DNA of 64,000 nucleotides, from NCBI RefSeq assembly GCF_029961145.1, contig NZ_JASBRG010000007.1, forward strand, positions 1,158,155 through 1,222,154. The letters are read 5' to 3'. Origin of the DNA: Pinibacter soli. GTDB taxonomy: Bacteria > Bacteroidota > Bacteroidia > Chitinophagales > Chitinophagaceae. Under the pieces are notes generated by a model that was not told where the DNA came from, searched no databases, and worked only from the letters and a program-made list of their open reading frames with translations. Shown one piece after another: positions 6,917 through 59,965 of this stretch. The first letter of the stretch is position 1, and every line of letters begins with the position of its first letter. The translations under genes and the position numbers were made by a program.

Positions 6917-6972
6917 GCTAAACGCCTAACGCTAAATGCAAATATGCTTGCGTTTAGTGTTAGGCGTTTAGC
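6917..6972. repeat. Near-perfect 56-base palindrome after the acyltransferase
   Basis: The two halves read GCTAAACGCCTAAC... and its reverse complement, meeting at 6944-6945. Four of 29 paired positions differ, and three of these remain G-U pairs in a plus-strand transcript. The word GTTAGGCGTTTAGC followed by ATTAAGCATT recurs in the hairpin region at 36244-36318. There is no T-run after the stem, so a simple intrinsic terminator is not indicated. Confidence 0.75.
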
Positions 6973-43030: not shown

Positions 43031-43040
43031 GGAGAACCGG

Positions 43041-43214
43041 AACGCAGATTATCATGATTGTCATGATTTGAATGATATGATTTTACGTTTTCATAAGGCT
43101 AATAAATACGAAGTTTCCAAAGTCGTTTCTGCGCTGCTTTTTTTGTGGTTTATAAACAGTGACAACCATCCTTAAAAATCATAACAGATCATGACAATCA
43201 TGACAATCTGCGTT
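43041..43214. repeat. GTCATGAT-word inverted repeat between convergent genes
   Basis: The left arm (43041-43084) begins AACGCAGATTATCATGATTG and the right arm (43175-43214) is its close inverse, AATCATGACAATCTGCGTT at its end. About 35 of 40 right-arm positions pair, with a four-base insertion in the left arm. Ninety bases separate the arms. It lies entirely between two convergent genes (ends 43030 and 43231). Confidence 0.75.
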
Positions 43215-43230
43215 CTTTTTCTCCTTCAAA

Positions 43231-43788
43231 TTATTCCTCCGGGTCTATCACTGCAGCCTTCGACTTGTCATCAAACTTTTTGTACAAGCCAACAGGTTCA
43301 ACGGTAATGAACACTTCAAGCGTAGGACCTACAACCAGCTCCAGCAAATGTCCGCCGTGTACAATACCATCCGACGTGGCGGCATTTACATGGGAATGCG
43401 CAACCGGCTGGCCATTGTAAATAGCAATGTTGCCCGTAAGTGTTGTAATTTCTGCGGCTTCATTGATGGGAATTACTTTGAACATTTTCTTTTGCTCATC
43501 ATACCATCCAACTGTCAGCGTACTGGCATCTCCAATGGCTGAATAATGGGCACTTTTTACATTGTACTTTTTAGCAAACTCGGTTAATCCTGTACGTAGC
43601 TCATCACCTGTTGCAAATACAAGCACATAATTTTTTGTTTCGCCGTTTGTACTCAACAATTTCACTTTAACACCTGGCGCTTTGCCCGCCTTTGGTGGTG
43701 TGGTCGGTGAAATATAATCCTGTGCGGCTGCAGCGAAACCAAACGCCGCAATGATCATCAATAAAAGACTTGATTTAAAGATTTGCAT
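43231..43788 (-). CDS. Exported PPC-domain (DUF296) protein
   Basis: A 185-residue protein from the ATG at 43788 (MQIFKSSLLLMIIAAFGFAAAAQ, a signal peptide). A longer ORF to 43872 translates an inverted-repeat arm and can be set aside. The PPC domain has YVLVFATGDELRTGLTEFAKKYNVKSAHYSAIGDASTLTVGWYDEQKK, and HSHVNAATSDGIVHGGHL with the conserved His set. In plants this domain is on AT-hook proteins, while stand-alone bacterial versions form trimers of unknown role; an exported form is notable. The start lies two bases from an inverted-repeat arm (43790-43824). Confidence 0.85.
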   Translation of the reverse strand: MQIFKSSLLLMIIAAFGFAAAAQDYISPTTPPKAGKAPGVKVKLLSTNGETKNYVLVFATGDELRTGLTEFAKKYNVKSAHYSAIGDASTLTVGWYDEQKKMFKVIPINEAAEITTLTGNIAIYNGQPVAHSHVNAATSDGIVHGGHLLELVVGPTLEVFITVEPVGLYKKFDDKSKAAVIDPEE

Positions 43789-44108
43789 CAATTTGAAAAT
43801 TTGGGGATTTGAAAATTTGAAAATTCTCGACGTGCAAATCTCGTTATTAATCCTAAACATATTGCATCGCAAGAATGATTAAATCAATTAGGGAGATACA
43901 CTCAAAGCATTTTCAAATTTTCAAATCCTCAAATTTTCAAATTGCGTTCGAACGACATGCAGGAAAAATTGTAGAATGTTTTACCCACACTTACCGTTTA
44001 TTTTGTAATTTATGTTTTCGTTGATAATCCAATATCCGACCCGAATTACCACTGGCACAATATTTATTGTTATCGTTTTTCCTTTACCCCCATGCGACTT
44101 ACACAACC
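43789..44108. other. Divergent gap occupied by an inverted-repeat element
   Basis: About 320 bases with no gene. Roughly half is the 154-base element at 43790-43943. The remainder to 44108 is leader for the PAS kinase. The region between the arms (43825-43908) has no coding or RNA structure that I could identify. Confidence 0.6.
43790..43943. repeat. TTGAAAAT inverted-repeat element, 35-base arms
   Basis: The left arm (43790-43824) starts AATTTGAAAATTTGGGGATT and the right arm (43909-43943) is its reverse complement at 34 of 35 positions. Interior 84 bases. The left arm shares 32 of 35 positions with 58048-58082. It starts two bases from the PPC-protein ATG. Confidence 0.85.
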
Positions 44109-46034
44109 ATGAGCGTTACATTTCCGGATACTAAATACTTATTGCAACAGGTTTTAGACCCACAGCAAGATGCTGTATACATTTGCGACAGCAATGGCTT
44201 TATTGTTTTTTACAACGAAGCATCCGCAAAACTTTGGGGCCGCAGGCCTGAACCCGGCAAAGAAAAATGGACCGCCGCATGGAAAACTTTTGACGAGAAA
44301 GGACAGCCATTTGCACCGTTTTCAACCGAAAGTATAATGAACGGCAAGCTGTCGATACACAACATGCTCGTTGAAAAATCTGATGGTAAAAGAACACTTG
44401 TCAAAACCAATCTCAGATATCTCCATGATGAAGAAGGCGCACACATTGGCTTTATTGTTAACTGCGAAAGCGTTCTAAGTCAAAATATAAACCAACAAAA
44501 AGAAGCACACCTGGCCGCCATCGTTGAAACCTCCGACGACGCCATCATTTCCAAAACACTCGATGGCGTAATTACCAGCTGGAACGCAGGCGCAGAAAGA
44601 ATCTTCGGCTACACTGCCGATGAAATGATCGGTCAACTGATCTTTAAACTTATTCCCGGAAATCTATGGAACGAAGAATCCATGATCCAGGAACATCTTC
44701 GCAGAGGTAGTCGCATTGAACACTATGAAACCGTTCGCATTACCAAAAACGGAAAGCTGCTGAATGTATCTCTGACAATTTCGCCGATAAAAGATGCTAA
44801 TGGCAAGATAGTAGGTGCTTCGAAAATTGCACGTGATATCACACTTCAAAAGATGCAGGAAGTTTCCTTACGTGAGAGTGAGGAACGATACCGGCTTGCC
44901 ATCGAGACAGCAAGACTTGGCACATGGTCGTTTGATATCAAAAACCATAACCTTGCCTACTCAACAGAAACGGCCAATATTTTCGGTACATGGAGCAAAG
45001 CGCTTACCTGGGCAGTTATGATGGAGGCTATTTATCCGGAAGACAAAGATCTTGTAAATGCCCGGCTGCAAGAGGCTATGACAAATGTAGACAGCGGTGA
45101 CTACGACATCGAATACCGCGTTGTTCAGGAATCGAAAGCCATCAGATGGGCAAGAGTGCGAGGCAAAGTATATTTCTCTTCGAATGGTGATGCAGAAAAG
45201 ATCATTGGCACCATGCTGGATATTACCGACGAAAAAACCACCAAAGAAATACTTGAACAAACGGTTGCCGAACGCACAGCTGATCTCAGCAGAATGAATG
45301 AACACCTGCTAAAGTCAAATGAGAATCTTGCTCAATTTGCTTATATAGCCAGTCACGATCTGCAGGAGCCTTTGCGGAAAATTCAAACATTCATAGACAT
45401 CATTGAGAAAAATGGACGCCTTGATCCGATGCCGGCAAATTATTTTAATCGTATAAAATCATCTGCCGAGCGAATGTCAGGTCTTGTAGAAAGCATCCTG
45501 GAATATTCCAGAATTGACCGACAGGAAACTCAGTTTGTAAAAACAAATCTTAACCTCATTCTGAAAGAAGTTCTTGAAGACTATGAAACACTAATCAATA
45601 CAACAGGCACTCAAATTCAATCGCAGCAATTGCCTGTAATAATGGGGCTGCCGTCTCAATTGCGACAACTGTTTGCAAACCTGATCAGCAATGCGATAAA
45701 ATTTTGCGAAACAACCCCTTGCATAAACATTAGTACACGATTCCTGTTCAACGACCAACTTCCAGATGGCGTACCAATACTGGACTCAGAGCGTGTGCTG
45801 GAAATTTCTTTTACAGACAACGGCATCGGCTTTGAACAACAGTATGCAGAAAAAATATTCCAGATTTTCCAGCGGCTGCATTCAAAATCCGCTTACAAAG
45901 GAACAGGCATCGGCCTTGCCCTTTGCAAAAAAATCATTGAGAATCACCAGGGCTATATATATGCATTCGGCGAACGGGATAAAGGCTCTACGTTTGTAAT
46001 ATTGCTTCCTGCTCATCTGGTTATTATGAAGTAA
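44109..46034 (+). CDS. PAS-domain sensor histidine kinase (phytochrome-like HisKA)
   Basis: A 641-residue soluble kinase from the ATG at 44109 (MSVTFPDTKYLLQQVLDPQQ); the upstream in-frame TTG at 44067 is unlikely. There are three PAS-type domains: about 10-120 (DAVYICDSNGFIVFYNEASAKLWG), about 135-250 (DDAIISKTLDGVITSWNAGA) and about 265-385 (YRLAIETARLGTWSFDI). A coiled linker follows, then HisKA with FAYIASHDLQEPLRKIQTF (phospho-acceptor His) and HATPase with NLISNAIKFCE, DNGIGFEQQYAEKIF and GTGIGLALCKKI. No transmembrane segment, so it likely senses a cytosolic or diffusible signal. No response regulator is adjacent. Confidence 0.93.
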   Translation: MSVTFPDTKYLLQQVLDPQQDAVYICDSNGFIVFYNEASAKLWGRRPEPGKEKWTAAWKTFDEKGQPFAPFSTESIMNGKLSIHNMLVEKSDGKRTLVKTNLRYLHDEEGAHIGFIVNCESVLSQNINQQKEAHLAAIVETSDDAIISKTLDGVITSWNAGAERIFGYTADEMIGQLIFKLIPGNLWNEESMIQEHLRRGSRIEHYETVRITKNGKLLNVSLTISPIKDANGKIVGASKIARDITLQKMQEVSLRESEERYRLAIETARLGTWSFDIKNHNLAYSTETANIFGTWSKALTWAVMMEAIYPEDKDLVNARLQEAMTNVDSGDYDIEYRVVQESKAIRWARVRGKVYFSSNGDAEKIIGTMLDITDEKTTKEILEQTVAERTADLSRMNEHLLKSNENLAQFAYIASHDLQEPLRKIQTFIDIIEKNGRLDPMPANYFNRIKSSAERMSGLVESILEYSRIDRQETQFVKTNLNLILKEVLEDYETLINTTGTQIQSQQLPVIMGLPSQLRQLFANLISNAIKFCETTPCINISTRFLFNDQLPDGVPILDSERVLEISFTDNGIGFEQQYAEKIFQIFQRLHSKSAYKGTGIGLALCKKIIENHQGYIYAFGERDKGSTFVILLPAHLVIMK

Positions 46035-46109
46035 AAAGTCAAAAAGCTTATTATCAGGATGGTTACGGAAAATAAACTTTCTGACTTTTGAATTTTTAAT
46101 TTTGACTTG
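46029..46109. repeat. AAAAGT-word inverted repeat at convergent stop codons
   Basis: The left arm (46029-46047, AAGTAAAAAGTCAAAAAGC) and right arm (46077-46109) pair approximately. The kinase stop TAA (46032-46034) lies in the left arm and the GH95 stop (46096-46098) lies in the right arm, so the element covers both gene ends. Confidence 0.65.
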
Positions 46110-48633
46110 TAACCTTCTTCAACTCTCCATCCAATCGGACCGATTCTCCTTTCATCGTCGAAAATTTCACGGTCTTATCGCCCAACTGAACATTCAATTC
46201 TCCGCCAAGTTTCGAAGTAAAGGTTGCAGTTACCAGTTTTCCATTTGCCCATTCCATATCCACCACAAAGCCTCCGCGTGTACCCAACCCTTTAACAGCG
46301 CCTGTTTCAAATGCATGCGGCAACGCAGGCAGCAGCTGAACAACATAACTGCCGTTTGTCGTTTGTTGCTGACTTTGCAAAAACATTTCTGCTATGGCGG
46401 CAGCTGCACCAAAGTTTCCGTCTATTTGAAATGGAGGATGGTTATCAAAAAGATTGGGCAGCGTTTTTGTTGTTAGCAGCACCGATAGCAATTTATATGC
46501 GTGATCGCCATCCTGCAACCTGTTCCACATATTGATCTTCCATGCGAGGCTCCAGCCCGTACCGTTATCACCTCTTGCCTCTAATGTTTTACGTGCAGCT
46601 TCTGCAAGCTCTGGTGTACCATTCACGGTAATCTGGTTGCCGGGATACAATCCAAACAAATGCGAAGTATGACGATGATGCGGATCTGTTTCTTTATAAT
46701 CTTCTGCCCACTCCATTATTCTCCCCGTTGTTTTACTTATGCGGATTGGTGCCAATTGCTGTAATGTCTCAGTACATTGCTTTCTAAAATCAGCGTCTAC
46801 ATTCAGTATTTTGCTTGCTTCGATGCAGTGCGTTAACAGATCATGAATAATTTCAAGGTCCATTGTAGCTCCATATGTAAAAACAGATACTTTTCCGTTA
46901 GGCAATACAAATTCATTCTCCGGTGAGTATGATGGATTAGTTACAAGCTTACCTGCACAAGCCGTACCCTCCGGTGCTTTCACAAGAAAGTCGAGCATAA
47001 ACAAAGCAGCACCTTTCATCAAAGGATAAGCCGTAGAAGAAAGAAATTTTCTATCTCCTGTAAAACAATAATGCTCCCATGGATCCTGTGCGAGCCATGC
47101 GGCGCCCATTGGCCAAATGCCTTGCGGACCGTCTGCAGGAGCTGTGAAACCCCATGCATCGGTGAGGTGATGCACCACCCAACCGCGTGCTCCGTATTCC
47201 GTACGTGCTGTTTTTTCACCGGGCTTCACCAATGCATTGCTAAGATCAAACAATGGCAAATGCATTTCAGAAAGATTGGTTATTTCTGCGGGCCAATAAT
47301 TCATCTGTACATTGATGTTCGTGTGAAAGTCTGCGTTCCATGGTGGATTCATTTGCCATGCCCATAAACCTTGCAGGTTAGCAGGCATGCCGCCCGGCTG
47401 CGAAGAGGAGATCAATAAATAACGTCCGTATTGAAAGTATGTTGCGATCAGATCATTGTCCGCTTTTCCATTCACACGGGCTTGTGCAAGGCGCTCATCT
47501 GTAGACAACGTCTTTAATGTATCAGCAACCTTTCCCAAATTAATTGCCACACGATTAAAATAGCGTTGATAGTCTTTTATATGTTGCGATTTCAATTGAG
47601 CGTAAGGAACAGTAATGGCTTTGCGAAGAGTTTTATTACACTCTTTTTCAGGATCAATATTTGAGGTCTGTACACCCTTTGCCAATTGCAACAAACCCGG
47701 ATAATTTGTCGCCGCTGTTATGTACAATGTAACGGACGTAGCCTCATGCACGGACAACACGCCGTCTTTGACTTCTACTGTTCCACCTTCCGCAACAGCT
47801 TTAACTTCTGCGGCAAACCTAACTCCTCTTTGTTTCCCTGTACTGTCTTTCACCGACACCTGTCCGCTAAGCAGTAGTGCCTGGTTATCGTCTGCAACGG
47901 GAACGCAGTTGGCATCTTTTGCACGTCTCAATCTCAGATTGAAACCAATGCTGCCTTTGTTACTTGCCGTAAAACGAACAACCATCACATTACTTGCTGC
48001 GTCTGCGAAACTTTCTCTTGTATATGTAGCGTCTTTCAAACGGTACTGCACCGTCGCGATTGCAGTTGACAAATCCAGACTTCTAACATAATTCTCTGCA
48101 TTGGCCAGAGGCATATCAAACCACAATTCTCCCAGCGATTGATAGGGCTTGATGCGCGACGGATTTCCCATCATGGTTTTACCCGCCAATTCAACCGCTT
48201 CATTGTTTTTATTTTCAAATAATAAACGACGTACCTCCGGTAAAGCTTTTAATGCATTGGGATTGCTAGCATCCTGCGCAAACCCATCCCACAGTGTGCT
48301 TTCATTTAGCTGAATGCGTTCATCAGTAACACCGCCAAATATCATCGCACCCAACTTTCCATTGCCTATTGGAAGTGCTTCTTCCCACACCTTTGCAGAT
48401 GTGCGGTACCACAAAACATTTTCTTTCTGTGGTCCATCTCCCTTTCCAGAAAAAACCGCACGGTCATACCATTGCGCTGTTATTTTCCCATTGCGTTGAG
48501 AGGCTGGCAATGTAGAATCTTCTTTTGTTAAGCGATCCTGTGAAAAGGTTGAAATGAAAGAGATTTGAAAAAAAATACCACCCAGAATTTTTATCCAATT
48601 CGAATTTGCAATCGTTTTTTTCTGTTTATACAT
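46096..48633 (-). CDS. Glycoside hydrolase family 95 (alpha-L-fucosidase / alpha-L-galactosidase)
   Basis: An 845-residue exported GH95. The ATG at 48633 gives MYKQKKTIANSNWIKILGGI and a signal peptide ending FSTFSQD. Family features are LWYRTSAKVWEEALPIGNGKLGAM, RIQLNESTLWDG, GGMPANLQGLWAWQMNPPWN, HTNINVQMNYWPAE (catalytic Asn pair) and HHRHTSHLFGLYPG. It releases terminal alpha-1,2-L-fucose or L-galactose from glycans such as xyloglucan or pectin side chains. It is the last gene of the minus-strand CAZyme cluster, about 115 bases after the GH3 gene at 48748. Confidence 0.95.
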   Translation of the reverse strand: MYKQKKTIANSNWIKILGGIFFQISFISTFSQDRLTKEDSTLPASQRNGKITAQWYDRAVFSGKGDGPQKENVLWYRTSAKVWEEALPIGNGKLGAMIFGGVTDERIQLNESTLWDGFAQDASNPNALKALPEVRRLLFENKNNEAVELAGKTMMGNPSRIKPYQSLGELWFDMPLANAENYVRSLDLSTAIATVQYRLKDATYTRESFADAASNVMVVRFTASNKGSIGFNLRLRRAKDANCVPVADDNQALLLSGQVSVKDSTGKQRGVRFAAEVKAVAEGGTVEVKDGVLSVHEATSVTLYITAATNYPGLLQLAKGVQTSNIDPEKECNKTLRKAITVPYAQLKSQHIKDYQRYFNRVAINLGKVADTLKTLSTDERLAQARVNGKADNDLIATYFQYGRYLLISSSQPGGMPANLQGLWAWQMNPPWNADFHTNINVQMNYWPAEITNLSEMHLPLFDLSNALVKPGEKTARTEYGARGWVVHHLTDAWGFTAPADGPQGIWPMGAAWLAQDPWEHYCFTGDRKFLSSTAYPLMKGAALFMLDFLVKAPEGTACAGKLVTNPSYSPENEFVLPNGKVSVFTYGATMDLEIIHDLLTHCIEASKILNVDADFRKQCTETLQQLAPIRISKTTGRIMEWAEDYKETDPHHRHTSHLFGLYPGNQITVNGTPELAEAARKTLEARGDNGTGWSLAWKINMWNRLQDGDHAYKLLSVLLTTKTLPNLFDNHPPFQIDGNFGAAAAIAEMFLQSQQQTTNGSYVVQLLPALPHAFETGAVKGLGTRGGFVVDMEWANGKLVTATFTSKLGGELNVQLGDKTVKFSTMKGESVRLDGELKKVTSQN

Positions 48634-48682
48634 ATAATCATTCTCGATTTTAAGGAGTCGCATGACGGTCAACTTAGGTGCT

Positions 48683-48722
48683 ACAAGACCTGACAGGTTT
48701 TTAGAACCCTGTCAGGTCTTGT
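48683..48722. repeat. Palindrome CAAGACCTGACAGG
   Basis: ACAAGACCTGACAGG (48683-48697) and CCTGTCAGGTCTTGT (48708-48722) form a perfect 15-base stem with a 10-base loop. It lies between the GH3 and GH95 genes in the same operon direction. I recall this same palindrome as frequent in Bacteroidota intergenic DNA, but could not check. Confidence 0.75.
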
Positions 48723-48747
48723 GATACGCTACTATTTATGTCAACAA

Positions 48748-51612
48748 TTAAAACTGTTTTGTTATACTCACATGTTTACTTGTAAACGTTACCTGTTTAC
48801 CTGCTATGTCTTCATTAAGAACAAATGCCACTTGCTTTTCTTTACCGGGTTCTACTTCAAAGTGATGCACATCATCCGCACGACTTCCATTTATATACAT
48901 CGAGACAGTTCCAACATCTGTAAGATTGCCACTGTTCTTAACGAGCACGGGCAATATCTTTTTTCCGATGATGCTGTCAACAAAAATATTTCCGGTAGTT
49001 ATGCTAAATGATGCTGCAAACTTTTTATTGTAATGCAACATAGTACTTACGCCTTCTACACTGGTGGCAAATGCAACACTGTTCTTAATTTCATCCGATG
49101 CTTTAAAGGAAGGGCTTTTTCCACCAACCAAAATTTTAAAATCACCGGCTTCTACCACTCTATCCATTTCGTCATTTAATAAAGATAATTGATAAGGGCT
49201 TAGCGTAAACGATATTTTCTTTGCTTCACCCGGAGCGAGCGTTACACGGGAAAAATCTTTCAACTCTGTTACGCGGGTTTTCACACTTGCATACATATCA
49301 GTAACATATAGTTGCACTACTTCATCGCCTGCAACGCTGCCAGTGTTGGTAACAATTGCCGTAACATTTATTGAGCCATCGTCATTTATTGAAGTCTTTA
49401 AATCCGAATAATTAAAAGAGGTATAACTCAAGCCATATCCAAAAGGATACAAAGGATAGAATGGCATATCTACATACGCATACTGCCTTCCTGATGTTTT
49501 GAAGTTGTAATACAATGGCAACTGCGCAACATCCTTCGGAAAGGTCATAGGCAAGCGACCTGCGGGATTGTAATCGCCAAACAATACATCGGTAGTAGCA
49601 TAGCCGCCTTCCTGTCCCGGAAGCCAGTTTACCAATATGCCTTTACAATGTTGGGAAGCATAAGTTAAGTTGTATGGCCTACCCGATTGGAGAATCAATA
49701 CAACAGGTTTTCCAGCGGCGCAAACCGCTTCCAATAATTTTTGCTGATATCCTGGCAAAATAAGAGAAGCATAGTCATTCGCTTCACCGGAAGTTTTTTT
49801 AACACCACTCATCGCTTCACTTGTTGAGCAATCGCCCAATACCATTACTACGACTTCTGCTTTTTTCGCAGCAGCAACCGCGTCTTTTATGCGCGAACTA
49901 TCTGTGGAATAAAACTCGCACCCCTTTTCAAACAACACCTGCGTTGCAGTGCCAACAGCTTTCTTCACACCTGATAGAACAGAAACAAGTTGTCCGGGCT
50001 GAAGTTTCGCAGTGTAATCGCCGGGTTGTAAATCGTCGGCGCCCGGGCCTATCACTGCAATAGTTGATATTTTTTTAGAGAGCGGCAAAACCTTGTCTTC
50101 ATTTTTCAACAACACAATTGATTCTCTCGCCGCTTGTCTCGCCACTTCTTTATGTGCAGGACTGTTCCAACCCGGATAGATAGTGTTCCAGTTTAAAGAC
50201 TTTGCAGGATTATGATCAAACAAGCCGTTCCTAAACATTGTTGCGAGCAAAGTACTGCAAGTGAAATTGAGATCATCCATATTGAGACCTCCGTTCTTTG
50301 CAGCTTCTATCACTTTCGGATTGTTGTACGTATCTCCGCAATTAGTTGCTACGCCTGCGGCAAGCGATTGATTCGCTGCTTCTACTACATTCGTTGCCGT
50401 AAAATGTTTCTTACTTGTAAGATTGCCAATTGCACCGCAATCGCTAACTACATAGCCATCGAATCCCCACTCCTCGCGAAGAATGCCTTTGAGCAACTCT
50501 TTGCTTTTTGCATCAGGCACGCCGTAGAAATCAGAGTAAGCAACCATGATCGATTGACATTTGTACTTTTCGATGACGTGACGAAAAGGAACCAAATGTA
50601 TCTCACGCATTTCGCGATCAGACAATCCGATGTCGTGAGAGTCGCGACCACCCAGCGGTGCACCGTGTGCAGCAAAGTGTTTTGGTGTAACCATCAATCC
50701 TTTTGATTGATAGCCTTTGATCCATGCTCCACCTATTTCCGATACCAACACAGGATCCTCTCCATAAGTTTCTTCGCAACGTCCCCACCTCGCATCCTGC
50801 GCCACATCAAGCACGGGAGACCATGCCTGCACAGTGTTTGCGCTCACCGTTTCATCACCAATTGTTTCTGCAACTTTCTCTATCAGCTGCTTGTTCCATG
50901 TTGCACCAAGACCAATTGATTGCGGAAAAATAGTAGCGCCGCTTCCATACGAAAAACCGTGAATGGCTTCCACCTTGTTCACAAACGGAATGCCCAAAGA
51001 AGGAATGCCGGGTATGCCCCAGCCTTCTCTCAACAATTCCATCTTTTGCGCAGGTGTCATTACGTTCAGTAGCAAAAGCACTCTCTCATTTACAGGGAGC
51101 GATGCATTTAGCCACGGTTTGTTTTTTAGTTCAGTCGCATCAGTCATAGCACCGCCATATTCTACTGTGATCTCTTTGAAAGTAACAGGCGCTTTGATGC
51201 TACTTTCTTTTATCACCATCTTTAAATGCGCACCATATTTTGCGGGAAATGAAACATCAAACGTCTTGCTCCCCGAAACACTGTAGGTAACAGGCGTTCC
51301 AAGGTTCATAGGATCGTAAGTGACGTATATTGTCAACGATTTTTTTAACACATCAGCAGTGAGATTATCGGTAACAATGTGTAAGCCGTTAATGTTGCCG
51401 GGCTTGTATAAAGTAAACAACACCGATTGTTCTTTCTTAAGATCATTGCTACGCAATGCCCAGCCTGTTTTCGTATCACCATCGAAAGACTGGCCAACAG
51501 CTGCCTGGTTAACAGACGCTACAGCTGACATGAAATATTTTGTTTGCGCCTGTGTGTCGTTGGCATGTAGTAAAAAGAAACCGAAAATAATTTTTGAAAG
51601 ATTCTTCTTCAT
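48748..51612 (-). CDS. Glycoside hydrolase family 3 (beta-xylosidase/beta-glucosidase type)
   Basis: A 954-residue exported GH3. It has a signal peptide (to about residue 22), an N-terminal discoidin-like beta domain (about 25-150, VNQAAVGQSFDGDTKTGWAL and VTFKEITVEY), then GH3 N-terminal (about 165-480), GH3 C-terminal (about 520-740) and an FnIII-like domain (about 755-830), plus a C-terminal extra beta domain. The nucleophile aspartate lies in GFDGYVVSDCGAIGNL, and KHFAAHGAP is the conserved substrate-binding block. The SDCGAI form is often seen in beta-xylosidases; linkage is not provable. The next gene on the minus strand is a GH2 (51664-54936), 51 bases away. Confidence 0.95.
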   Translation of the reverse strand: MKKNLSKIIFGFFLLHANDTQAQTKYFMSAVASVNQAAVGQSFDGDTKTGWALRSNDLKKEQSVLFTLYKPGNINGLHIVTDNLTADVLKKSLTIYVTYDPMNLGTPVTYSVSGSKTFDVSFPAKYGAHLKMVIKESSIKAPVTFKEITVEYGGAMTDATELKNKPWLNASLPVNERVLLLLNVMTPAQKMELLREGWGIPGIPSLGIPFVNKVEAIHGFSYGSGATIFPQSIGLGATWNKQLIEKVAETIGDETVSANTVQAWSPVLDVAQDARWGRCEETYGEDPVLVSEIGGAWIKGYQSKGLMVTPKHFAAHGAPLGGRDSHDIGLSDREMREIHLVPFRHVIEKYKCQSIMVAYSDFYGVPDAKSKELLKGILREEWGFDGYVVSDCGAIGNLTSKKHFTATNVVEAANQSLAAGVATNCGDTYNNPKVIEAAKNGGLNMDDLNFTCSTLLATMFRNGLFDHNPAKSLNWNTIYPGWNSPAHKEVARQAARESIVLLKNEDKVLPLSKKISTIAVIGPGADDLQPGDYTAKLQPGQLVSVLSGVKKAVGTATQVLFEKGCEFYSTDSSRIKDAVAAAKKAEVVVMVLGDCSTSEAMSGVKKTSGEANDYASLILPGYQQKLLEAVCAAGKPVVLILQSGRPYNLTYASQHCKGILVNWLPGQEGGYATTDVLFGDYNPAGRLPMTFPKDVAQLPLYYNFKTSGRQYAYVDMPFYPLYPFGYGLSYTSFNYSDLKTSINDDGSINVTAIVTNTGSVAGDEVVQLYVTDMYASVKTRVTELKDFSRVTLAPGEAKKISFTLSPYQLSLLNDEMDRVVEAGDFKILVGGKSPSFKASDEIKNSVAFATSVEGVSTMLHYNKKFAASFSITTGNIFVDSIIGKKILPVLVKNSGNLTDVGTVSMYINGSRADDVHHFEVEPGKEKQVAFVLNEDIAGKQVTFTSKHVSITKQF

Positions 51613-51663
51613 AAACGCTCTTGATTAATTGTTGGCTATTGTTAGTTGAATCTGTTTAAATTT

Positions 51664-54600
51664 TTATTGGGAAATTTTTGAACGAAGCTTTTCGACAAAA
51701 TCTTTCTGGGTAGAAATGAATTTTACCTGCACGCCCAAATTATTTCTTTGCACGTTTTGAATAAGAAAATGGTTCCAACCTTTATCCAGCGGCAGTGAAT
51801 GAATAATTTTACCATCTTTCTTATTTTCAATGGAAGCGGCATCTACGGCCTTTCCATTCAAATACACCTGCCACGGACTTTTGGTAGTGATATCCATATC
51901 TAACACCGGCATATCCGGCTCTGACAAAAGATTCACCAGCGAGCGGGGACTGTACACCCAAAAGCTAGTGAAGTTGTTCCCATCCTTGCTTTGTTGAATA
52001 TCGCTCGCATCCAATGTACCGTTCGAAGAAGCACTTAGCGTTCTTGATGTTGTTTTACCATTTGCTACAGAATCCAAAAACATCGCGTATTGCAGAACAC
52101 CATCGCCATCTATCGCTGAAAGATCTTTACCTGCTTGAGCATTGAACGTTGCACCAAGATTTGCCAACAGGGCATACAATACTCTTTCAGATGTTTTGTA
52201 GATTGCCTGTGGATCAAGTGTGGTGAAATAAATATTTCCCTGGCCCGATGAATATACGACCATCACATTGCCAACTGCTTTATTTTCTCTTTCGCTTTTA
52301 ATCAGGGAAATGGTTTTAGAATATTCCGCCTTGCCGTTCCAGGCCTTCCAGTCGGCATTGCAAGCACTCAACAGCACTTTTCCTTTGTTGACAAAATCAC
52401 CCGCAATACAATAATTCACCAGCGGTTGCGACGCCATCTCACTGAAGTAAAGTTCACCGTTACCAAAACCATTCAAAAGAGGATCATCATTTTCTTTGAT
52501 AAACGAAGTGGCTTTGCGATCAACAACATTTACCGCGAAAGGAAGATAAGATGCTACGGCTGCAGGTGTTTTTTCATTGGCACCCCAAATGAAGATATCA
52601 CCGCCCTTGTTTGTAACAGCACTGCAGAGCGAAATAGATGATTTATCGGTTGGAGGAAATTTTCCGTCTACAATAACCAGCGCATGATCTGTTGCAGAAA
52701 GCTTATCCTCTGCTTGTACACCAAGATCCCTGAACAGCGTAGCCAGCTTAGCTTCAGGATCTGCAGACAAGATCATTATTTTTGAATAGGACGTTTTGCG
52801 TTTATCATCAGTCGTTGGTTTATCTTCTATTTTGTCATAATCACTGATAGGAACATTCGTAGCATAAGAGGCTTGTATGGCATTGAACAACGGCCATGTG
52901 CGGTACATGGGCAATGAAGGATCATAACCCGGATTCAATGTGCTGGTATATGGCCCGAGCCTTTCCGGCTGCACTCCCGGCTGACCTTCTTTGAATGCAT
53001 CGAAGAAAATTCCGTCGGTTGATTTTGGAGCTCTGCTTGTATCTTTTAATCCGAACTCAAGTGGCTTTAATCCATACCATACCACATTAAAAATAGAATA
53101 GTAAGAAGCATCGTATTTCTTTTGTCCGTTAAGCAACCGCACTGCTTCTATTGCCACGCCTTCCATTCTACCCTGTTGAGAAACATAAGAGCGATTGCCA
53201 TTGTATTGTGCCGTTTGCCTTGGCGTACCATAGTAAGCCATTCCTGATTCACCGATGCCCCACAGCTTTCCTTTTGATGACCAGTTCTTGTAAGAGTTTT
53301 CATCGCCATAGTGACCGATGATTGTTGGCAGATCAGTAGGACGATCTGTTTCACCATCACCGGAGATCCAGTTTCTTGTCGGATCCAACTCTTTTGTGAT
53401 CGCCACCCAATGATTGATCTCCTGTAACTGTTTGTTGACAAGGCTATCGGGCGAGTGATGCACATACACAGCTACAGGAATATTCTCATTACAAACACTC
53501 CATCCAAATACAGATGCATGATTGCGGTCACGCAGAATGAAGCGCTTCAGGTGATCAGCTGCATTTGTCCAATATACTTCTGCATCTTCTTTAGGGCCGC
53601 CATCGCTTGCCCACAATCCTGTTTCGTCAAGAATATAGATACCCATTTCATCGGCCATGTCAAGATAGAACGAAGGGTAAGGTTGTGCATGCAAACGAAC
53701 AGCGTTTGCATGAGCGTCTTTCAACATCGAGTACCAGGCCCATGCATAACGGCGCGTCATTTGAGGAATGCCCATGAAATGCCATGAATCGCCCTTCATT
53801 GCAACGCGTTGTCCGTTGAGGTATAGTTTATCGCCTTCTATTTTAAACTGTCTCCAACCAAAGCGTTCATATTGTTTATCAACGATAGTTTTGCCATTGC
53901 TCAATGTTGTCACGAGCCCATATAAATTAGGCGCTTCAGCCGACCATGTCTTCAGCTTACCTTTAACAGCAACGGAAAGTGTCACTATCTTTTTTTCACC
54001 TGCCACAAGCGTTACTTTTTGAGATGGAATAGAAAGCGCTTCTTTATTATCGAGTGTCCATTTTACTTCAGGCGCTTCGGTAATACTTTTACCGGCAAGA
54101 TTGATCCATTGGGAAACAGTTCCACCAAGGTCGATGGTTCTTTTTGCGTTAGTCGTATTTATCAAAGTATATTCAACCTGTAAAGAATCTTTATCGACCT
54201 GCGCTTTAATGAAAGCATTAGCTACGTATACCTCGGGCTTTACGAGTAAGTATGCATCTTGCCAAATGCCATTGATGTGTTGCCCCCAGAAGGAGCCGCC
54301 TACGTACAATCTTTTTCCATACTTGCCTGGCTCGTTGAGCAGATCAGCATCTGCAACCCACAACAGTAATTCATTTTCGCCGTCCTGTTTTATCTCGTCA
54401 GTTATATCTACTTCAAAAGGAAGGAAGACATCATAGTTCTCTCCCACTTTTTTTCCATTAAGTATCACTTTGGTGAATCCGGCAACAGCATCGAAATGCA
54501 ATACCAGGCGCTTACCTTTCCATTCTGTTTTGTAAACAAATTTGCGCATGAGCCAACCGGCCCTCACAGTGTCCCAATCTTTTGGATAGCTGGGATAAGT

Positions 54601-54936
54601 CACGAAATCGCCGCCGCCTTGCGCAAAACTGTTGATGTTCCATGGTGATGGAATTTTTACCGCAACATTTTCCCATGAAAAACTTTTGGGCAATGCGGGA
54701 TCGCGTAACTGATCTTTTGAAAAACCGCGAACATTTCTTTCAGGAAAAAATTTCCAGGAACCATTCAAACAAATATCATCCCTGAAGGGACGTTCGATCG
54801 AAGTAGTCCGATCTTCGGAGGGGGCAAAATCATGATGAAAATTTTGCTGCTGCGCATTGACCTTTGTACCAAGGTTCATGCAACATGTCAACAGAGCGAA
54901 AGCAACTCCTTTGTTTCTTTTTAATAAAGCAAGCAT
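51664..54936 (-). CDS. Glycoside hydrolase family 2
   Basis: A 1090-residue exported GH2 enzyme. Signal peptide to about residue 28, sugar-binding N-terminal jelly roll (about 50-235, LNGSWKFFPERNV and WKGKRLVLHFDAVAGFTKVILNG), Ig-like domain (about 240-355), TIM barrel (about 360-650) with acid/base glutamate in FGWSVCNENIPV and candidate nucleophile in LWGIGESGMAYYG. A long C-terminal half adds a glutamine-amidotransferase-like or flavodoxin-like module (about 720-830, KIMILSADPEAKLATLFRDL) and a terminal beta domain. The gene sits between two GH3 genes. Substrate could be a beta-galactoside, glucuronide or arabinoside. Confidence 0.93.
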   Translation of the reverse strand: MLALLKRNKGVAFALLTCCMNLGTKVNAQQQNFHHDFAPSEDRTTSIERPFRDDICLNGSWKFFPERNVRGFSKDQLRDPALPKSFSWENVAVKIPSPWNINSFAQGGGDFVTYPSYPKDWDTVRAGWLMRKFVYKTEWKGKRLVLHFDAVAGFTKVILNGKKVGENYDVFLPFEVDITDEIKQDGENELLLWVADADLLNEPGKYGKRLYVGGSFWGQHINGIWQDAYLLVKPEVYVANAFIKAQVDKDSLQVEYTLINTTNAKRTIDLGGTVSQWINLAGKSITEAPEVKWTLDNKEALSIPSQKVTLVAGEKKIVTLSVAVKGKLKTWSAEAPNLYGLVTTLSNGKTIVDKQYERFGWRQFKIEGDKLYLNGQRVAMKGDSWHFMGIPQMTRRYAWAWYSMLKDAHANAVRLHAQPYPSFYLDMADEMGIYILDETGLWASDGGPKEDAEVYWTNAADHLKRFILRDRNHASVFGWSVCNENIPVAVYVHHSPDSLVNKQLQEINHWVAITKELDPTRNWISGDGETDRPTDLPTIIGHYGDENSYKNWSSKGKLWGIGESGMAYYGTPRQTAQYNGNRSYVSQQGRMEGVAIEAVRLLNGQKKYDASYYSIFNVVWYGLKPLEFGLKDTSRAPKSTDGIFFDAFKEGQPGVQPERLGPYTSTLNPGYDPSLPMYRTWPLFNAIQASYATNVPISDYDKIEDKPTTDDKRKTSYSKIMILSADPEAKLATLFRDLGVQAEDKLSATDHALVIVDGKFPPTDKSSISLCSAVTNKGGDIFIWGANEKTPAAVASYLPFAVNVVDRKATSFIKENDDPLLNGFGNGELYFSEMASQPLVNYCIAGDFVNKGKVLLSACNADWKAWNGKAEYSKTISLIKSERENKAVGNVMVVYSSGQGNIYFTTLDPQAIYKTSERVLYALLANLGATFNAQAGKDLSAIDGDGVLQYAMFLDSVANGKTTSRTLSASSNGTLDASDIQQSKDGNNFTSFWVYSPRSLVNLLSEPDMPVLDMDITTKSPWQVYLNGKAVDAASIENKKDGKIIHSLPLDKGWNHFLIQNVQRNNLGVQVKFISTQKDFVEKLRSKISQ

Positions 54937-55577
54937 TACAAAGCTGATTGTGGGTTAAAAATCCAACACTGGTAAACTCCGAACTCGTCGAAAAAATCTA
55001 CCTATGACAAATTAAATATCGCCACCAAAGAAAGCTTTGAGAGACTAATAAAATCGTAATAAAACATTAATAGAACGTTAGTACCGGAATTTCTTTATAA
55101 TAAACTGAAGAACTCAATAACTCAATAACTGAGCAACCCAATAACTGAAGGTTGAGTCATTGAAACGATAACGAAACGCACACGTCATTGCGAGGCAAGC
55201 AGAGCATGCTGCCTGATATTGTGCTGTATGGCGCAATCGCGGCAATTGCCAAAGCAATCTCTCAATAGTAAGGAAGATTGCTTCGACCGATTCACTTGGT
55301 GCAAGCATCTTGACTAAACGCGAGTCACATTGTCTGCAGGTCTCGCAATGACGACCACTCGCACTCGTCATTGCGAGGCAAGCCGAGCGTGTTGTCTGAT
55401 ATTGTGCTGTATAACGCAATAGCGGGAATTGCCGAAGCAATCTTAGGGCCTATCAGTGAGATTGCTTCGGCCGCCTCCGAATTTTGATGTAGCTTTTGTA
55501 ATTCGAGCACTCAGATTTCTCTGGCCTCGCAATGACGACGCTGATTTTATTCAACCCTTCAGTTTATTCAGTTATTC
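54937..55577. other. 640-base intergenic region filled with repeats
   Basis: No gene. It has two tandem MITE-like elements (55183-55537) inside an outer pair of ACTGAATAA-word arms (55099-55150 and 55551-55582), plus AT-rich leader for the GH2 gene near 54940-55080. The ORFs drawn across it are repeat translations. Confidence 0.65.
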
Positions 55578-55582
55578 TTAGA
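55099..55582. repeat. ACTGAATAA-word arms flanking the MITE-like pair
   Basis: The left arm reads ATAAACTGAAGAACTCAATA and continues with ACTCAATAACTGA words to about 55150. The right arm (55551-55582) is roughly its inverse. On the minus strand the right arm starts at the TAA stop of the GH3 gene (55578-55580) and reads TAAGAATAACTGAATAAACT. Confidence 0.6.
55183..55537. repeat. Tandem pair of MITE-like elements with CGTCATTGCGAGG ends
   Basis: Copy A (55183-55353) and copy B (55366-55537), 171 and 172 bases, both start CGTCATTGCGAGGCAAGC and end CTCGCAATGACG. Both contain GCCTGATATTGTGCTGTAT- or GTCTGATATTGTGCTGTAT-type stretches and an inner AAGCAATCT...AGATTGCTTCG inverted repeat. No ORF of transposase type is inside. 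Related sequence occurs at 21184-21345. Confidence 0.75.
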
Positions 55583-57935
55583 GCTTAATCTTCCCACTCA
55601 ACCGCACATCCTCCGAACTCGCTCCGACCAAAATATCGAACCATCCCGGTTCAACTACGCGTTTCATTTCACGGTTGATCAAGGAAAAATCTATTGCGTG
55701 CAAAACCATCGTTACCAATTTTTCTTCACTGGGTTGAAGGGAAACCCTTTCAAAGCCGCGCAGCTTTCTTACGTAAGTCGAAACCGAGCTTAACTGATCA
55801 TGCAGGTACAATTGGGCGATTTCATCACCCGCATATTTCCCGGTATTTTTTATTTTGAAAGTTACTGTCACCTCGCCTTTTGAAGCGTATTGATCGGCAT
55901 TCACTTTAAGATCGCTGTAAGCAAATGTTGTATAACTCAACCCAAATCCAAACGGATAAAGAAAGCCACGCACGTTGGCATCACCTACTCCATCAGCCGC
56001 CGGCTTCATAGGAAAGGAAAGCGGTATTTGTCCTACATGTTTGGGAAACGGCACACACAATTTACCGGCAGGATTGTAATCACCAAATAAAACAGATGCC
56101 ATAGCATCTCCCATTGATTCACCAAGGTACCAGGTCTCAATGATGGCAGGTAAATTTTTACTCGCATAATTAATTGTCACAGGGCGACCGCCCATTAACA
56201 CCAGCACAGTTGGCTTGCCCAATGCCGCAATACGCTTGACCAATTCTTCCTGTCTGCCCGGCAATTTCAGGTTAAGTCTTGAATGTGTTTCACCAATTGT
56301 ATTTTCATTGTCTCCTAAAGCAAGCAAAACTACATCTGCCGCAGAAGCGGCGTCAACAGCCTCTTTCAAAGCTGCATCCTCATCTGCAGTAAGAGCAAAA
56401 TCTTCTATATCGCTTTCAGGAAAATTTTTGTCGGTGTGTGTACAACCTTTTGCATACAAGACTTTTGTGTTTGACGGAAGCGCTTTTATAATGCCATCGT
56501 AAAAGGTAACAACATTTGTATGCACCGGACCATAGCGTGAGAGCAAACTCTTTTCTTCTTTTACATTGGGGCCTATCAACGCGATGGTTTTTATGCTGTT
56601 CTTGTTCAAAGGCAATGTGTTGTTATCATTCTTCAACAAAACAATACTTTGCTTAGCCGCTAATGCAGCGAGATCTTTCGCTTCCTGGTTGTGCACGAGG
56701 CCGTCTGCCAGCGTTGTATCTTTTACATAAGGATCATCAAAAAGTCCCAACCAAAATTTTACACGCAACACCTCGCTCACGCGTTGATCGATCACGCTCA
56801 TAGGTATGCTGCCATTTTTAATTCCCCTTCTTATGCCCATAATGTACGGGCGAGGTGCCGCAAAATCCGTACGCACATTCATGCCTGCTGTAAGTGCCTG
56901 CTTAGCGGCATCTGCGGTGTCAACCGCAACATGATACTTATCCCAAAGATCTTCAAATGCATGGCTGTCGCTCACTACATATCCCTTAAACTTAAATTGC
57001 TTACGCAAAATATCAGTAAGAAAATAATAATTGCCAATGATGGGAACACCATCGTAATCATTATAAGAAGCCATTGTACCCATTGCTCCAGCCTCCTCAA
57101 ATGCGACTCTGAATGGTTCAAGATACAGTTCCCACATTTCTCTCGGCGCCACATGCGGATCGGTGCGGGTTCCTCCATCGCGGCCACCAACAGGAATGCC
57201 GTACACTGCGAAATGTTTTACAGTCGACACAATTTTGTTTTCCTGTATGCCCGTTATATTTTGCCTGCCTAACTCCGCAACAAGAAACGGATCGCAACCA
57301 TAAGTTTCTTCAATTCTTCCCCAACGCGGATCTGACGCTACATCCAGTATTGGCGAGTACACATTTGTGTAGCCCAATGCTTTGGCTTCTCTTCCGGTAA
57401 CCCGTGCAATTTTATGCACAAGCTCTTTGTTGAAAGTACATGCCTGTGCAATCTGCGCAGGAAAATACGTAGCCTTCATGTGATTCAAACCGCGAATACC
57501 TTCTGTGGTAAAATCAACAGGAATACCTAAACGTGTTTGCTCAACGAACCATTTTTGTATAGTATTGATGGCACCTGCATGGGACGAGTATGGATAAGCA
57601 TACATTGTGTCCTTACGCAGCCCCGTAAGTTGTTCATCAATATTAGCGATGCCATCTTTCCACACACTGTCTCTCCATCCGGCTTGTGGCAAACGATCTT
57701 TCAAAACAGCGCCATAGCCGTACAATGTAGCCAGCTGGCAAGTCTTTTCTTCCGTTGTCATTTGCGACAGCAAATTACTTACACGCTTATCAATGGGTTG
57801 TGCCGGATCTTCGTAAACATCTTTTTTGCCATTCTTATTAAAGTCTATCCAGCCGTTCTTTTTCACTGACTGAGCAAGTACATTGTTAGTTAAACATGTT
57901 ACCGACAAAGTCAGCGCTATCAAAATTTTATTCAT
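55578..57935 (-). CDS. Glycoside hydrolase family 3
   Basis: A 785-residue exported GH3 with signal peptide (MNKILIALTLSVTCLTNNVLAQ). GH3 N-terminal (about 60-360), C-terminal (about 420-640) and FnIII-like (about 690-765) domains are all present. Key residues: KHFAVYGIP block, and nucleophile aspartate in FKGYVVSDSHAFEDLWDKY. An N-terminal segment YEDPAQPIDKRVSNLLSQMT is typical of secreted xylan/xyloglucan GH3 enzymes. It differs from the 954-residue GH3 upstream by lacking a discoidin domain. It and the esterase at 58184 are separated by 248 bases with an inverted-repeat element. Confidence 0.95.
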   Translation of the reverse strand: MNKILIALTLSVTCLTNNVLAQSVKKNGWIDFNKNGKKDVYEDPAQPIDKRVSNLLSQMTTEEKTCQLATLYGYGAVLKDRLPQAGWRDSVWKDGIANIDEQLTGLRKDTMYAYPYSSHAGAINTIQKWFVEQTRLGIPVDFTTEGIRGLNHMKATYFPAQIAQACTFNKELVHKIARVTGREAKALGYTNVYSPILDVASDPRWGRIEETYGCDPFLVAELGRQNITGIQENKIVSTVKHFAVYGIPVGGRDGGTRTDPHVAPREMWELYLEPFRVAFEEAGAMGTMASYNDYDGVPIIGNYYFLTDILRKQFKFKGYVVSDSHAFEDLWDKYHVAVDTADAAKQALTAGMNVRTDFAAPRPYIMGIRRGIKNGSIPMSVIDQRVSEVLRVKFWLGLFDDPYVKDTTLADGLVHNQEAKDLAALAAKQSIVLLKNDNNTLPLNKNSIKTIALIGPNVKEEKSLLSRYGPVHTNVVTFYDGIIKALPSNTKVLYAKGCTHTDKNFPESDIEDFALTADEDAALKEAVDAASAADVVLLALGDNENTIGETHSRLNLKLPGRQEELVKRIAALGKPTVLVLMGGRPVTINYASKNLPAIIETWYLGESMGDAMASVLFGDYNPAGKLCVPFPKHVGQIPLSFPMKPAADGVGDANVRGFLYPFGFGLSYTTFAYSDLKVNADQYASKGEVTVTFKIKNTGKYAGDEIAQLYLHDQLSSVSTYVRKLRGFERVSLQPSEEKLVTMVLHAIDFSLINREMKRVVEPGWFDILVGASSEDVRLSGKIKL

Positions 57936-58047
57936 TATGCGATCACCTTTTTAAAGAGATATAAAATTGTGAAAAAAAATCAATACGCAAAGCTGTGAGT
58001 TAAAATTCCGGAATGATTTCAGTCTCATGGACACTAAATAGCGGAAC

Positions 58048-58185
58048 AATTTTAAAATTTAAGGATTTGAAAATTTGAAAATGCTTTGCGTGCGACACGA
58101 GCCTCTACTAATTTCTGTATTCAGTTCAGCGAGTTAAGAGCTTTTATTGAAATCTGCACTGAAATAATTTTCAAATTTTCAAATC
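58048..58185. repeat. TTGAAAAT element, second copy
   Basis: The left arm (58048-58082) begins AATTTTAAAATTTAAGGATT and shares 32 of 35 positions with the arm at 43790-43824. The right arm (58167-58185, ATTTTCAAATTTTCAAATC) is an exact inverse of 58064-58082, but is cut short where it meets the esterase gene's end. The TGA stop (58184-58186) overlaps its last bases. Confidence 0.8.
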
Positions 58186-59965
58186 ACCTGTATTTCTCAA
58201 TCACAGGTATCAACAACCCCGCTGCTTTAATCTGTCCCACCACGCTTGGGTGCAAACCATCGCCATAATTAGCCTTCGTCAGCCATCCATCTGTATCTAC
58301 ATAATGTAGTTTTGTATCACCTGCAGCGATGCGTACATTCACTGCAGCCAATGTTGGCACTGCTTTCACGCCAAGAAATGTTCGCATCACCAATATTTGT
58401 GCGTTGGGAAATTGACTGCGAATTTTGAAAAGGAACTCTGCATAGTTTGCCTGCAGCACACTGTCCGGCACACGCTTATTGTTATCATTTGTACCAAGAT
58501 TAATCACAATCATGTCCGGAACATATTTGTTCATCTCCCACATAGGGCTCACAATTGATGCAGGCGAACCCATTCTGAAGTACTGATTATCCATGCCACC
58601 CTTAGGATATCCACTTACCAGCGTAATGCCGGGGTAAGCAATCTGAGTGTGTTCCGCGCCAAGTTTTTCTGCACTTATCCATGCATAATCAGAAACATTT
58701 GCCTGGTCATCTGTATAACCTGCTGTAATCGAGTCGCCGATAAACTCAATAAGAAACGGAGACACAGGAGGATCAGACGTTACAGCGCCAGGTTCCAAAA
58801 TCAATCCATGAAAACTAAAGACATAATTGTAATCCTTGCCCTGCGCAACACTAAGTATGTGCTTTCCTTTTGACAACGCAGTAGGTGTGAGATCAATTGT
58901 ATCGCTTACATTCTTATAACTGATCCAGGGACCATTGTCTATCTTGACGTAGTAGTTTGTTTTGTTCGTACCTGTTTTCAATTTCACTTTCGTGCCGGTG
59001 AATGCAACTTTAAAATAAGCCCCGCCCCATCTGCTCACATATTCGGCAGCATTGCTTTGATCCCATCGGCCAAAGTATTTGATGTGATTATCTTCCAGCG
59101 AACCAGGTGCAATTTTCGTAGGAGAAGCTTTCTTTTTTGTTTGTGCAAACAACCAATCCCAAACTTCGTTTTCTGCGTACGTTCTACTCCATGAATCATG
59201 ACCAACACCGGGATATTCTGTATATCGCGGATGGCCTCCTTTTGAAACAATCTGCTGCACCATTGCACGTGAACGCGTTACCGGCACGGTGCTGTCAGCA
59301 TCGCCATGAAATACCCAAAGCGGAACATGCGAAAGCTTTCCCGCAAAAGCAGTGTCGCCACCACCGCAAACAGGCACACCTGCAGCAAACAACTCCGGAT
59401 GACGCTGTAACATTTCCCATGTAGCAAAGCCGCCCATTGAAAGTCCCGTTATGTAAATGCGATCGCGATCAATGTTATTCTCCTTAATGATTTTATCAAG
59501 CAATTCAATGGATAACTGCATTGGCCATGTAGGCTCTCTCTGCATTGTATGGCTCTGTCCACCAAAAGGCGTATATACCCACACTGCGCCAGCATCGTTA
59601 TCTACATCTTTTCTTTCCGGACATTGCGGTGCTAAAACATAGCATGGATATTTTTCCCAAAACTTCGTACACGAAAAACGAAGGAACTGCTTGCGATTGT
59701 CAACGCCTCTTTCTCCGGCTCCATGCATGAACAATACCAGCGGATATTTCCCTCCGTTTTGCACTGCTGGTTTGTAAAGCCTGTAAGGCAAAACATGGTC
59801 GTTCTTTTTGTACACATTAAAAGAGAAATCTGAGAATTTCTTCTCCCAATCGAGCATTGGCACTGTTGTGTAATCAGGCGTTGATGCATTAACAGCCTGT
59901 GCGTTGATGTTACCGATCAACATCGTGCAGACTAGCAACATCAATATATTCTTGACAGATTTCAT
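58184..59965 (-). CDS. Two-enzyme carbohydrate esterase (alpha/beta-hydrolase + CE2-type GDSL)
   Basis: A 593-residue exported fusion. Domain 1 (about 30-275) is an alpha/beta hydrolase of the PHB-depolymerase/CE1-like group with LVLFMHGAGERG, nucleophile Ser176 in ITGLSMGGF, Asp224 in HGDADSTVPV and His256 in VGHDSWS. Domain 2 (about 290-593) is a CE2-type acetylesterase: a jelly roll (YFGRWDQSNAAEYVSRWGGAYFKV) then an SGNH part with FIGDSITAGY (Ser412), INLGTNDNN (Asn/Asp) and YGDGLHPSV (Asp569/His572). Together they could remove acetyl and a second acyl or aryl group from a hemicellulose. Located between GH3 and GH2 genes. Confidence 0.92.
   Translation of the reverse strand: MKSVKNILMLLVCTMLIGNINAQAVNASTPDYTTVPMLDWEKKFSDFSFNVYKKNDHVLPYRLYKPAVQNGGKYPLVLFMHGAGERGVDNRKQFLRFSCTKFWEKYPCYVLAPQCPERKDVDNDAGAVWVYTPFGGQSHTMQREPTWPMQLSIELLDKIIKENNIDRDRIYITGLSMGGFATWEMLQRHPELFAAGVPVCGGGDTAFAGKLSHVPLWVFHGDADSTVPVTRSRAMVQQIVSKGGHPRYTEYPGVGHDSWSRTYAENEVWDWLFAQTKKKASPTKIAPGSLEDNHIKYFGRWDQSNAAEYVSRWGGAYFKVAFTGTKVKLKTGTNKTNYYVKIDNGPWISYKNVSDTIDLTPTALSKGKHILSVAQGKDYNYVFSFHGLILEPGAVTSDPPVSPFLIEFIGDSITAGYTDDQANVSDYAWISAEKLGAEHTQIAYPGITLVSGYPKGGMDNQYFRMGSPASIVSPMWEMNKYVPDMIVINLGTNDNNKRVPDSVLQANYAEFLFKIRSQFPNAQILVMRTFLGVKAVPTLAAVNVRIAAGDTKLHYVDTDGWLTKANYGDGLHPSVVGQIKAAGLLIPVIEKYR

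Follow-up and report, generated by a model that had tools for sequence, protein, structure and literature searches.

A family of dispersed palindromic elements at gene 3' ends in Pinibacter soli, with similarities to REPINs

Detailed work on REP-type repeats has come mainly from Proteobacteria. Among the closest described systems are the REPINs of Pseudomonas fluorescens SBW25, with which the elements reported here share two inverted, conserved half-sites separated by a spacer that is less conserved but of set length, an extragenic and dispersed distribution, and a RAYT gene nearby (PMC3116915). In Bacteroidetes, TnpA-REP subclass 2.4 is accompanied by canonical REPs, and subclass 2.6, which contains RAYT group 5, by atypical structures (PMC6006769). 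Some of the repeats flanking TIRtron or TIRYT genes have been assigned to repeat families (PMC3733652), and prokaryotic MITEs, like the present elements, are small and intergenic and have terminal inverted repeats (PMC10969869 and PMC5896051).

In the current study, we analyzed a window of Pinibacter soli DNA, i.e., the whole stretch of 64,000 nucleotides from position 1,158,155 to 1,222,154 of contig NZ_JASBRG010000007.1, and compared its elements with the remainder of the genome (G000) and with two sister species of the same genus (G248 and G249). The initial annotation of the window had described a recurrent inverted repeat with 35-base arms in two gaps and had interpreted it as a MITE-like mobile or RNA-hairpin element. 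The observation is real, and was under-called, and its MITE-like interpretation is partly supported. We propose that the repeats form a REPIN-like family specialized for gene 3' ends, with a RAYT gene as the leading candidate for its mover, a reading in which we place about as much trust as doubt.

Anatomy and extent of the family

The two copies in the window and the genes that they adjoin are the following (window coordinates).

43790-43943: element 1, whole, 35 + 84 + 35 bases
43790-43824, plus strand: element 1 left arm, 35 bases, four 8-base units
43825-43908, strandless: element 1 interior, 84 bases
43909-43943, minus strand: element 1 right arm, mirror image of the left arm (34/35)
43231-43788, minus strand: PCC-domain (PF03479) gene, its putative ATG start adjoining element 1
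58048-58184: element 2, whole
58048-58082, plus strand: element 2 left arm
58083-58166, strandless: element 2 interior, 84 bases, orientation opposite to that of the orthologous G248 copy
58167-58184, minus strand: element 2 right arm, 18 bases, two units only, ending in a stop codon
58184-59965, minus strand: esterase gene (CE2_N and GDSL matches), its TGA stop (58184-58186) flush with element 2

As first described, the arms of element 1 match at 34 of 35 positions (43790-43824 against 43909-43943) and the left arm returns at 58048-58082 with 32 of 35, both of which can be read directly from the letters, and the right arm of element 2 is indeed shortened by a coding end, i.e., to 18 bases that run into the TGA of the 58184-59965 gene. 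Element 1 belongs to the divergent-gap class and adjoins the PCC gene at its putative start codon. An Rfam search of the window returned no RNA match at gathering score. Two further palindromes lie in the window, namely a repeat with GAACGCAGATTATCATGATTGTCATGAT arms and a spacer of about 120 bases located 3' of the PCC gene (43040-43215), words of which recur in all three genomes, and a short palindrome of the GCTAAACGCCTAACG family at about 6917-6972.

Allowing at most two mismatches, the 19-base arm word GATTTGAAAATTTGAAAAT matched the P. soli genome (5.9 Mb, 12 contigs) at 194 forward and 191 reverse positions, these being match counts and not element counts, since one arm may give several, and the reversed-pattern control gave 0 forward and 0 reverse matches in the same genome. 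Similarly, positions 43760-43960 of the window had 121 matches on both strands of this genome. The proposal that the element is dispersed, with a variable interior between conserved arms, is thus borne out by its many copies in the genome. The interiors had been described as about 84 bases long and only weakly similar; the length is correct for both window copies, but P. soli interiors are mutually related, with near-full-length matches at 70-77%, and their ends share the motif GCTTTnnGTGCAnC.

We collected 111 non-redundant copies (48 from G000, 33 from G248 and 30 from G249) with the interior search limited to 66-104 bases. The arm consensus, AATTTGAAAATTTGARRATTTGAAAATTTGAAAAT, is 35 bases long with sharp boundaries and consists of four units of 8, and the interior measures 81-86 bases in 86 of the 111 copies. 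The family thus has the architecture of a REPIN, with two conserved half-sites inverted around a spacer of set length. The interior starts with (G/T)CTTTnnGTGCAnCTTT from both sides, so that the halves of the consensus are symmetric, with some polarity between them.

This symmetry appears to be one of sequence motifs and not of pairing. Arms are hardly more similar to their own partner than to permuted partners (identity 0.836 vs 0.825, sd 0.004, z of about 2.5, 111 copies), and pairing of interior halves with their own partner did not exceed the permuted value (z -1.5), so the compensatory changes that would have supported the initial annotation are hardly present in the arms and absent from the interior halves. 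Selection for a hairpin was rejected on the basis of this negligible covariation. Besides, interior folding barely exceeds that of shuffled sequences (mean z -0.52, 11% below -2), the arm consensus contains no guide of the GT[AG]G or GTAG type, and no strong hairpin was seen in it by eye. Short target duplications, the other expected support, were not seen either: none of the 86 canonical copies (both arms at least 27/35, out of 111) has a direct repeat of at least 3 bases at its ends, with decay in old copies being possible, and end repeats of 1 base (22 vs 16.4 permuted) and 2 bases (1 vs 6.4 permuted) occur in the same set.

Within the order, the exact arm word is present, mostly in low numbers, in 58 of 248 genomes, covering 29 of 126 genera. 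Twenty stretches from other genera contain recurring arms of the same build, as judged by eye, around interiors that vary in length and sequence. A literature search with the literal arm and family words, covering few subscription journals, returned no paper.

Other palindromes are also numerous in this genus. Long inverted repeats (arms of at least 24 bases) number 36 in G000:C11:938155-1442154, and 74 and 57 in the syntenic regions of G249 and G248, respectively, and none was present in a single order-3 Markov simulation of the G000 region. By eye, they comprise about a dozen families, many with arms of short units, and a given stop-codon site can hold one family in one species and a different family in another.

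Placement at gene ends and fate in sister species

Based on crude gene calls, none of the 111 copies lies inside a long frame, and the family is thus extragenic as well as dispersed. With the same calls, 109 copies could be placed, of which 58 are in tandem, 32 in convergent and 19 in divergent gaps; convergent gaps account for 41 of the 356 gaps of at least 154 bases in the three regions. The elements lie close to gene 3' ends, with a median distance of 2 bases to 122 3' ends compared with 64.5 bases to 96 5' ends. Tandem copies are within 10 bases of the stop in 40 of 58 cases, against 22.4 expected under uniform placement, and 24 of the 32 convergent copies are within 10 bases of both stops. 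At 121 of 194 arms, a frame of at least 100 codons ends between -150 and +35; the stop is formed by a T and the first AA of the arm in 22 arms, and by the TGA of AATTTGA in 14.

The sister species, which are closer to each other than to P. soli (fourfold-site identity 0.656 for G249-G248, 0.553 for G000-G249 and 0.563 for G000-G248), allow the history of individual sites to be followed. Orthologous pairs were reduced from 47 to 43 by removing four with a flank match below 300 bases, and pairs within one genome or with one flank only were also left out. At these sites (43 pairs, 24 sites) mean identity is 0.88 for arms and, taking the better of the two orientations, 0.74 for interiors. The arm value is biased upward, since the arms served to detect all copies, including the orthologous pairs. 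A fairer check of conservation is the comparison by synteny, in which a truncated arm was found at three of six retained sites. It comprises 13 pairwise comparisons, i.e., full elements with an alignable partner site and without the site merged by the absence of the PCC gene, and the partner carries the element in six and lacks it in seven. Five of the seven element-less partners (four sites) have another palindromic family instead, as identified by eye, and one has a remnant of about 14 bases (C309797 vs A1144015), which might reflect excision, a deletion or an old target. No blurring by scattered changes was seen in the arms of the six retained sites, which are either complete or truncated; arm units are lost beside a gene end at A998812, A1216211 and A1368472, and at A1002083/B786259 the arms are kept while the interior in G249 is another palindrome.

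Orthologous interiors were scored in both orientations, and the 99th percentile of 6046 non-orthologous pairs was used as the threshold. Of the 43 pairs, 15 had kept their orientation, 7 were inverted and 21 were indeterminate, which places an inversion between sister species at 5 of 13 classifiable sites. The interior of element 2 is one of the inverted ones, scoring 42 vs -3.5 against G248. Wholesale replacement of interiors at orthologous sites was rejected, as this two-orientation comparison revealed inversion behind the low identity. The arms of inverted copies are too alike for the crossover point to be located, and recombination between them is the simplest cause of the inversion. Identity above 0.81 without shared flanks was limited to the pair of elements at the RAYT gene described below together with a G249 copy (0.86-0.89) and to one other pair (0.83), and with so few highly similar pairs among the sampled copies movement was not directly seen.

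The position of the copies, flush with stops and filling convergent gaps, supports a host 3'-end module, in which the element would chiefly benefit the cell by ending or trimming the transcripts of one or both neighboring genes. Each arm would act as a sequence signal that has the same sense in both converging transcripts, and selection would keep the arms after an ancient spread. Arms and interiors both exceed fourfold-site identity (with the upward bias of the arm value), the 13 site comparisons show the element either present or absent with retained arms full or truncated, and another palindromic family occupies the same place at four sites. Such a module is nevertheless difficult to reconcile with the 19 of 109 placed copies between divergent genes, the missing compensatory pairing, the folding of interiors at the level of shuffles, the truncation of arms at half of the retained sites, and the patchy occurrence in the order, and we consider it unlikely. 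A guild of interchangeable palindromic modules at gene 3' ends is a doubtful reading as well. About a dozen families with short-unit arms, unrelated in sequence, would swap at the same stop codons, and the TTTGAAAA family would be one of them, a selected, bidirectional, invertible 3'-end signal recognized by a protein and not by RNA pairing.

A RAYT gene as candidate mover

A Y1_Tnp profile had three matches above cut-off in the P. soli genome, where the gene of interest is the following.

G000 C11:608085-608621: RAYT gene, REP-associated tyrosine transposase, Y1 HUH

It matches NF047646 with 99.4 bits (cut-off 80), has a predicted structure with a mean pLDDT of 92.6 whose best fold match is 4er8, i.e., TnpA-REP with its REP hairpin, and has an HUH-to-Y distance of 80 by our own count. 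Its stop adjoins an element and one arm lies about 400 bases upstream. The G248 orthologue (93%) is bracketed by two full elements in the same orientation, which are 0.92 identical and form the most similar of the 6046 non-orthologous pairs. The G000 and G248 units are homologous from an arm to a point about 50 bases within the other element, and beyond the units homology consists of 61 bases of a shared neighbor gene. This neighboring HTH gene indicates that the two loci correspond at least in part. This RAYT gene is absent from G249, where one element of 0.86-0.89 identity remains close to a homologous gene and a remnant of the HTH gene.

A RAYT gene is present in 98 of 294 genomes of the family at E of at most 1e-40, but none of 28 related loci (L271-L298; 47-64% identity, at least five shortened by contig ends) carries the arms. 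Instead, 15 of these loci have an inverted sequence common to both flanks, often GC-rich, and comparable hairpins occur upstream of the RAYT gene in G000 and G248. These upstream GC-rich palindromes were rejected as a dispersed family, an 18-base pattern matching the RAYT locus only; the exact 14-base GC-rich motif has no copy beyond the two RAYT loci in 1.75 Mb, and one at one mismatch. A further 28 RAYT loci in element-bearing genomes of the order gave isolated weak matches at 10, and the three of these that were read (L079, L084, L086) are not arms. RAYT as a universal partner was dropped given these isolated weak matches and the empty family loci, and the arm word is also present in genomes in which the RAYT search found nothing, i.e., G209 (near-complete, 17 matches), G028 and G082. 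With bracketing in G248, partial bracketing in G000 and no arms at the related loci, the link between RAYT and the element is plausible, not established. The related transposase that the initial annotation proposed to look for thus has a candidate, of RAYT (HUH) type and not of the DDE type of a classical MITE, whose connection to the element is incomplete.

The RAYT genes of L271-L298, which stem from many genera of the family, have inverted motifs such as ACTGGTCTGAGCGTCCCGCTCAGACC or CTGGCGCAGGAATG on their flanks, and a survey of cognate RAYT repeats looks feasible. A second RAYT gene (L091 / L062, G000:C9:119437-119967), with counterparts of 40% identity in G248 and G249, has CTGCAAGGCTTGTAGCCTTGCAG-type hairpins on both sides, and a third Y1 transposase gene (L060, G000:C11:242721-243065) is followed, past its 3' end, by a palindrome of the form CAGCCCCGTAGGGGCG...CGCTCCTACGGAGCTGG, as seen by eye.

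Absence of a gene that lies between elements in another species is illustrated by the PCC gene. In G249 it sits between two elements, in P. soli it has an element on one side and a different palindrome family on the other, and in G248 it was not found in the genome and the outer flanks join at a single element, whose interior is 0.50-0.61 identical to the two G249 copies with no clear mosaic. As G248 and G249 are the closer pair, loss in G248 would be the simpler history. Among 11 stretches between neighboring copies this is the single clean absence; the middle of the other 10 is present in the examined DNA of another genome, and genes between neighboring copies were accordingly rejected as mobile cassettes.

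In the REPIN-like reading that we prefer, the family would consist of small non-autonomous DNA elements of two inverted, AT-rich 35-base half-sites about 84 bases apart, settled at gene 3' ends. The arms may be retained since a protein or mobilizing enzyme reads each of them by sequence, and flipping and loss of intervening DNA would proceed through recombination between near-identical arms. Past spread may have been mediated by a single-strand HUH transposase of the RAYT type, the element-bracketed RAYT gene being the leading candidate, and most present copies are probably old and vertically inherited.

Descent from a DDE-transposase insertion sequence, as classical MITEs, i.e., non-autonomous remnants recognized by their 35-base terminal inverted repeats, would explain these repeats with their inner conserved motif, the length of about 154 bases and the many copies. 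We regard it as quite unlikely given the lack of target duplications (in copies that are old), the arms kept while interiors differ in other families of the order (by eye), and the RAYT as the only transposase recognized among the longest frames of 11 stretches of at most 6 kb between copies, which represent part of the genomes. Invertons of Bacteroidota are flipped by site-specific recombinases and thereby change the expression of their neighbors. Such a switch would fit the inversions between close species (5 of 13 classifiable sites) and the arms held to a consensus, as expected of recombinase sites; yet the elements are located at gene ends instead of promoters, a flip alters little in a near-palindromic element, and flips seen in assemblies may be rare ordinary recombination, which makes a switch very unlikely. 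Most improbable are passive palindromes with no protein or function, whose likeness would be maintained by replication slippage and template switching. They would account for arms of 8-base units in genomes rich in other short-unit palindromes, but not for arms hardly closer to their own partner than to other arms and mostly of the same length.

Comparison with described systems

The REPIN-like reading can be set against each related system. Compared with prokaryotic MITEs, the present family has no target duplications of at least 3 bases and no matching DDE transposase recognized in the examined DNA (PMC10969869, PMC5896051). The RAYT gene resembles TnpA-REP subclass 2.6 of Bacteroidetes in its HUH-to-Y distance (80 vs a reported median of 82) and in atypical flanking repeats that lack the GT[AG]G guide and have copies elsewhere in the genome, a likeness based on distance and repeats and not on subclass profiles (PMC6006769), whereas the related RAYTs of the family carry different flanking repeats instead of these arms. 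Both TIRtrons (TIRYT) and our locus have a RAYT-like gene with long flanking repeats unrelated to GTAG REPs (PMC3733652), with the difference that the G248 gene is flanked by whole palindromic elements as direct repeats that have many copies genome-wide.

In comparison with the REPINs of SBW25, the arms described here are 35 bases long, AT-rich, built of 8-base units and without the GTAG guide, and compensatory changes, which are reported as common in those REPINs, are hardly seen; the word 'inversion' is absent from that account (PMC3116915). As the guide tetranucleotide and the compensatory pairing of classical REPINs are missing, we classify the family as a variant and not as a member. Overall, its traits, i.e., arms kept in sequence without pairing, a position flush at stops, flipping between species, and the bracketing of a gene that later vanished, make this variant a clear test case for whether repeats of this type in Bacteroidota are selfish, structural, or part of transcript ending.
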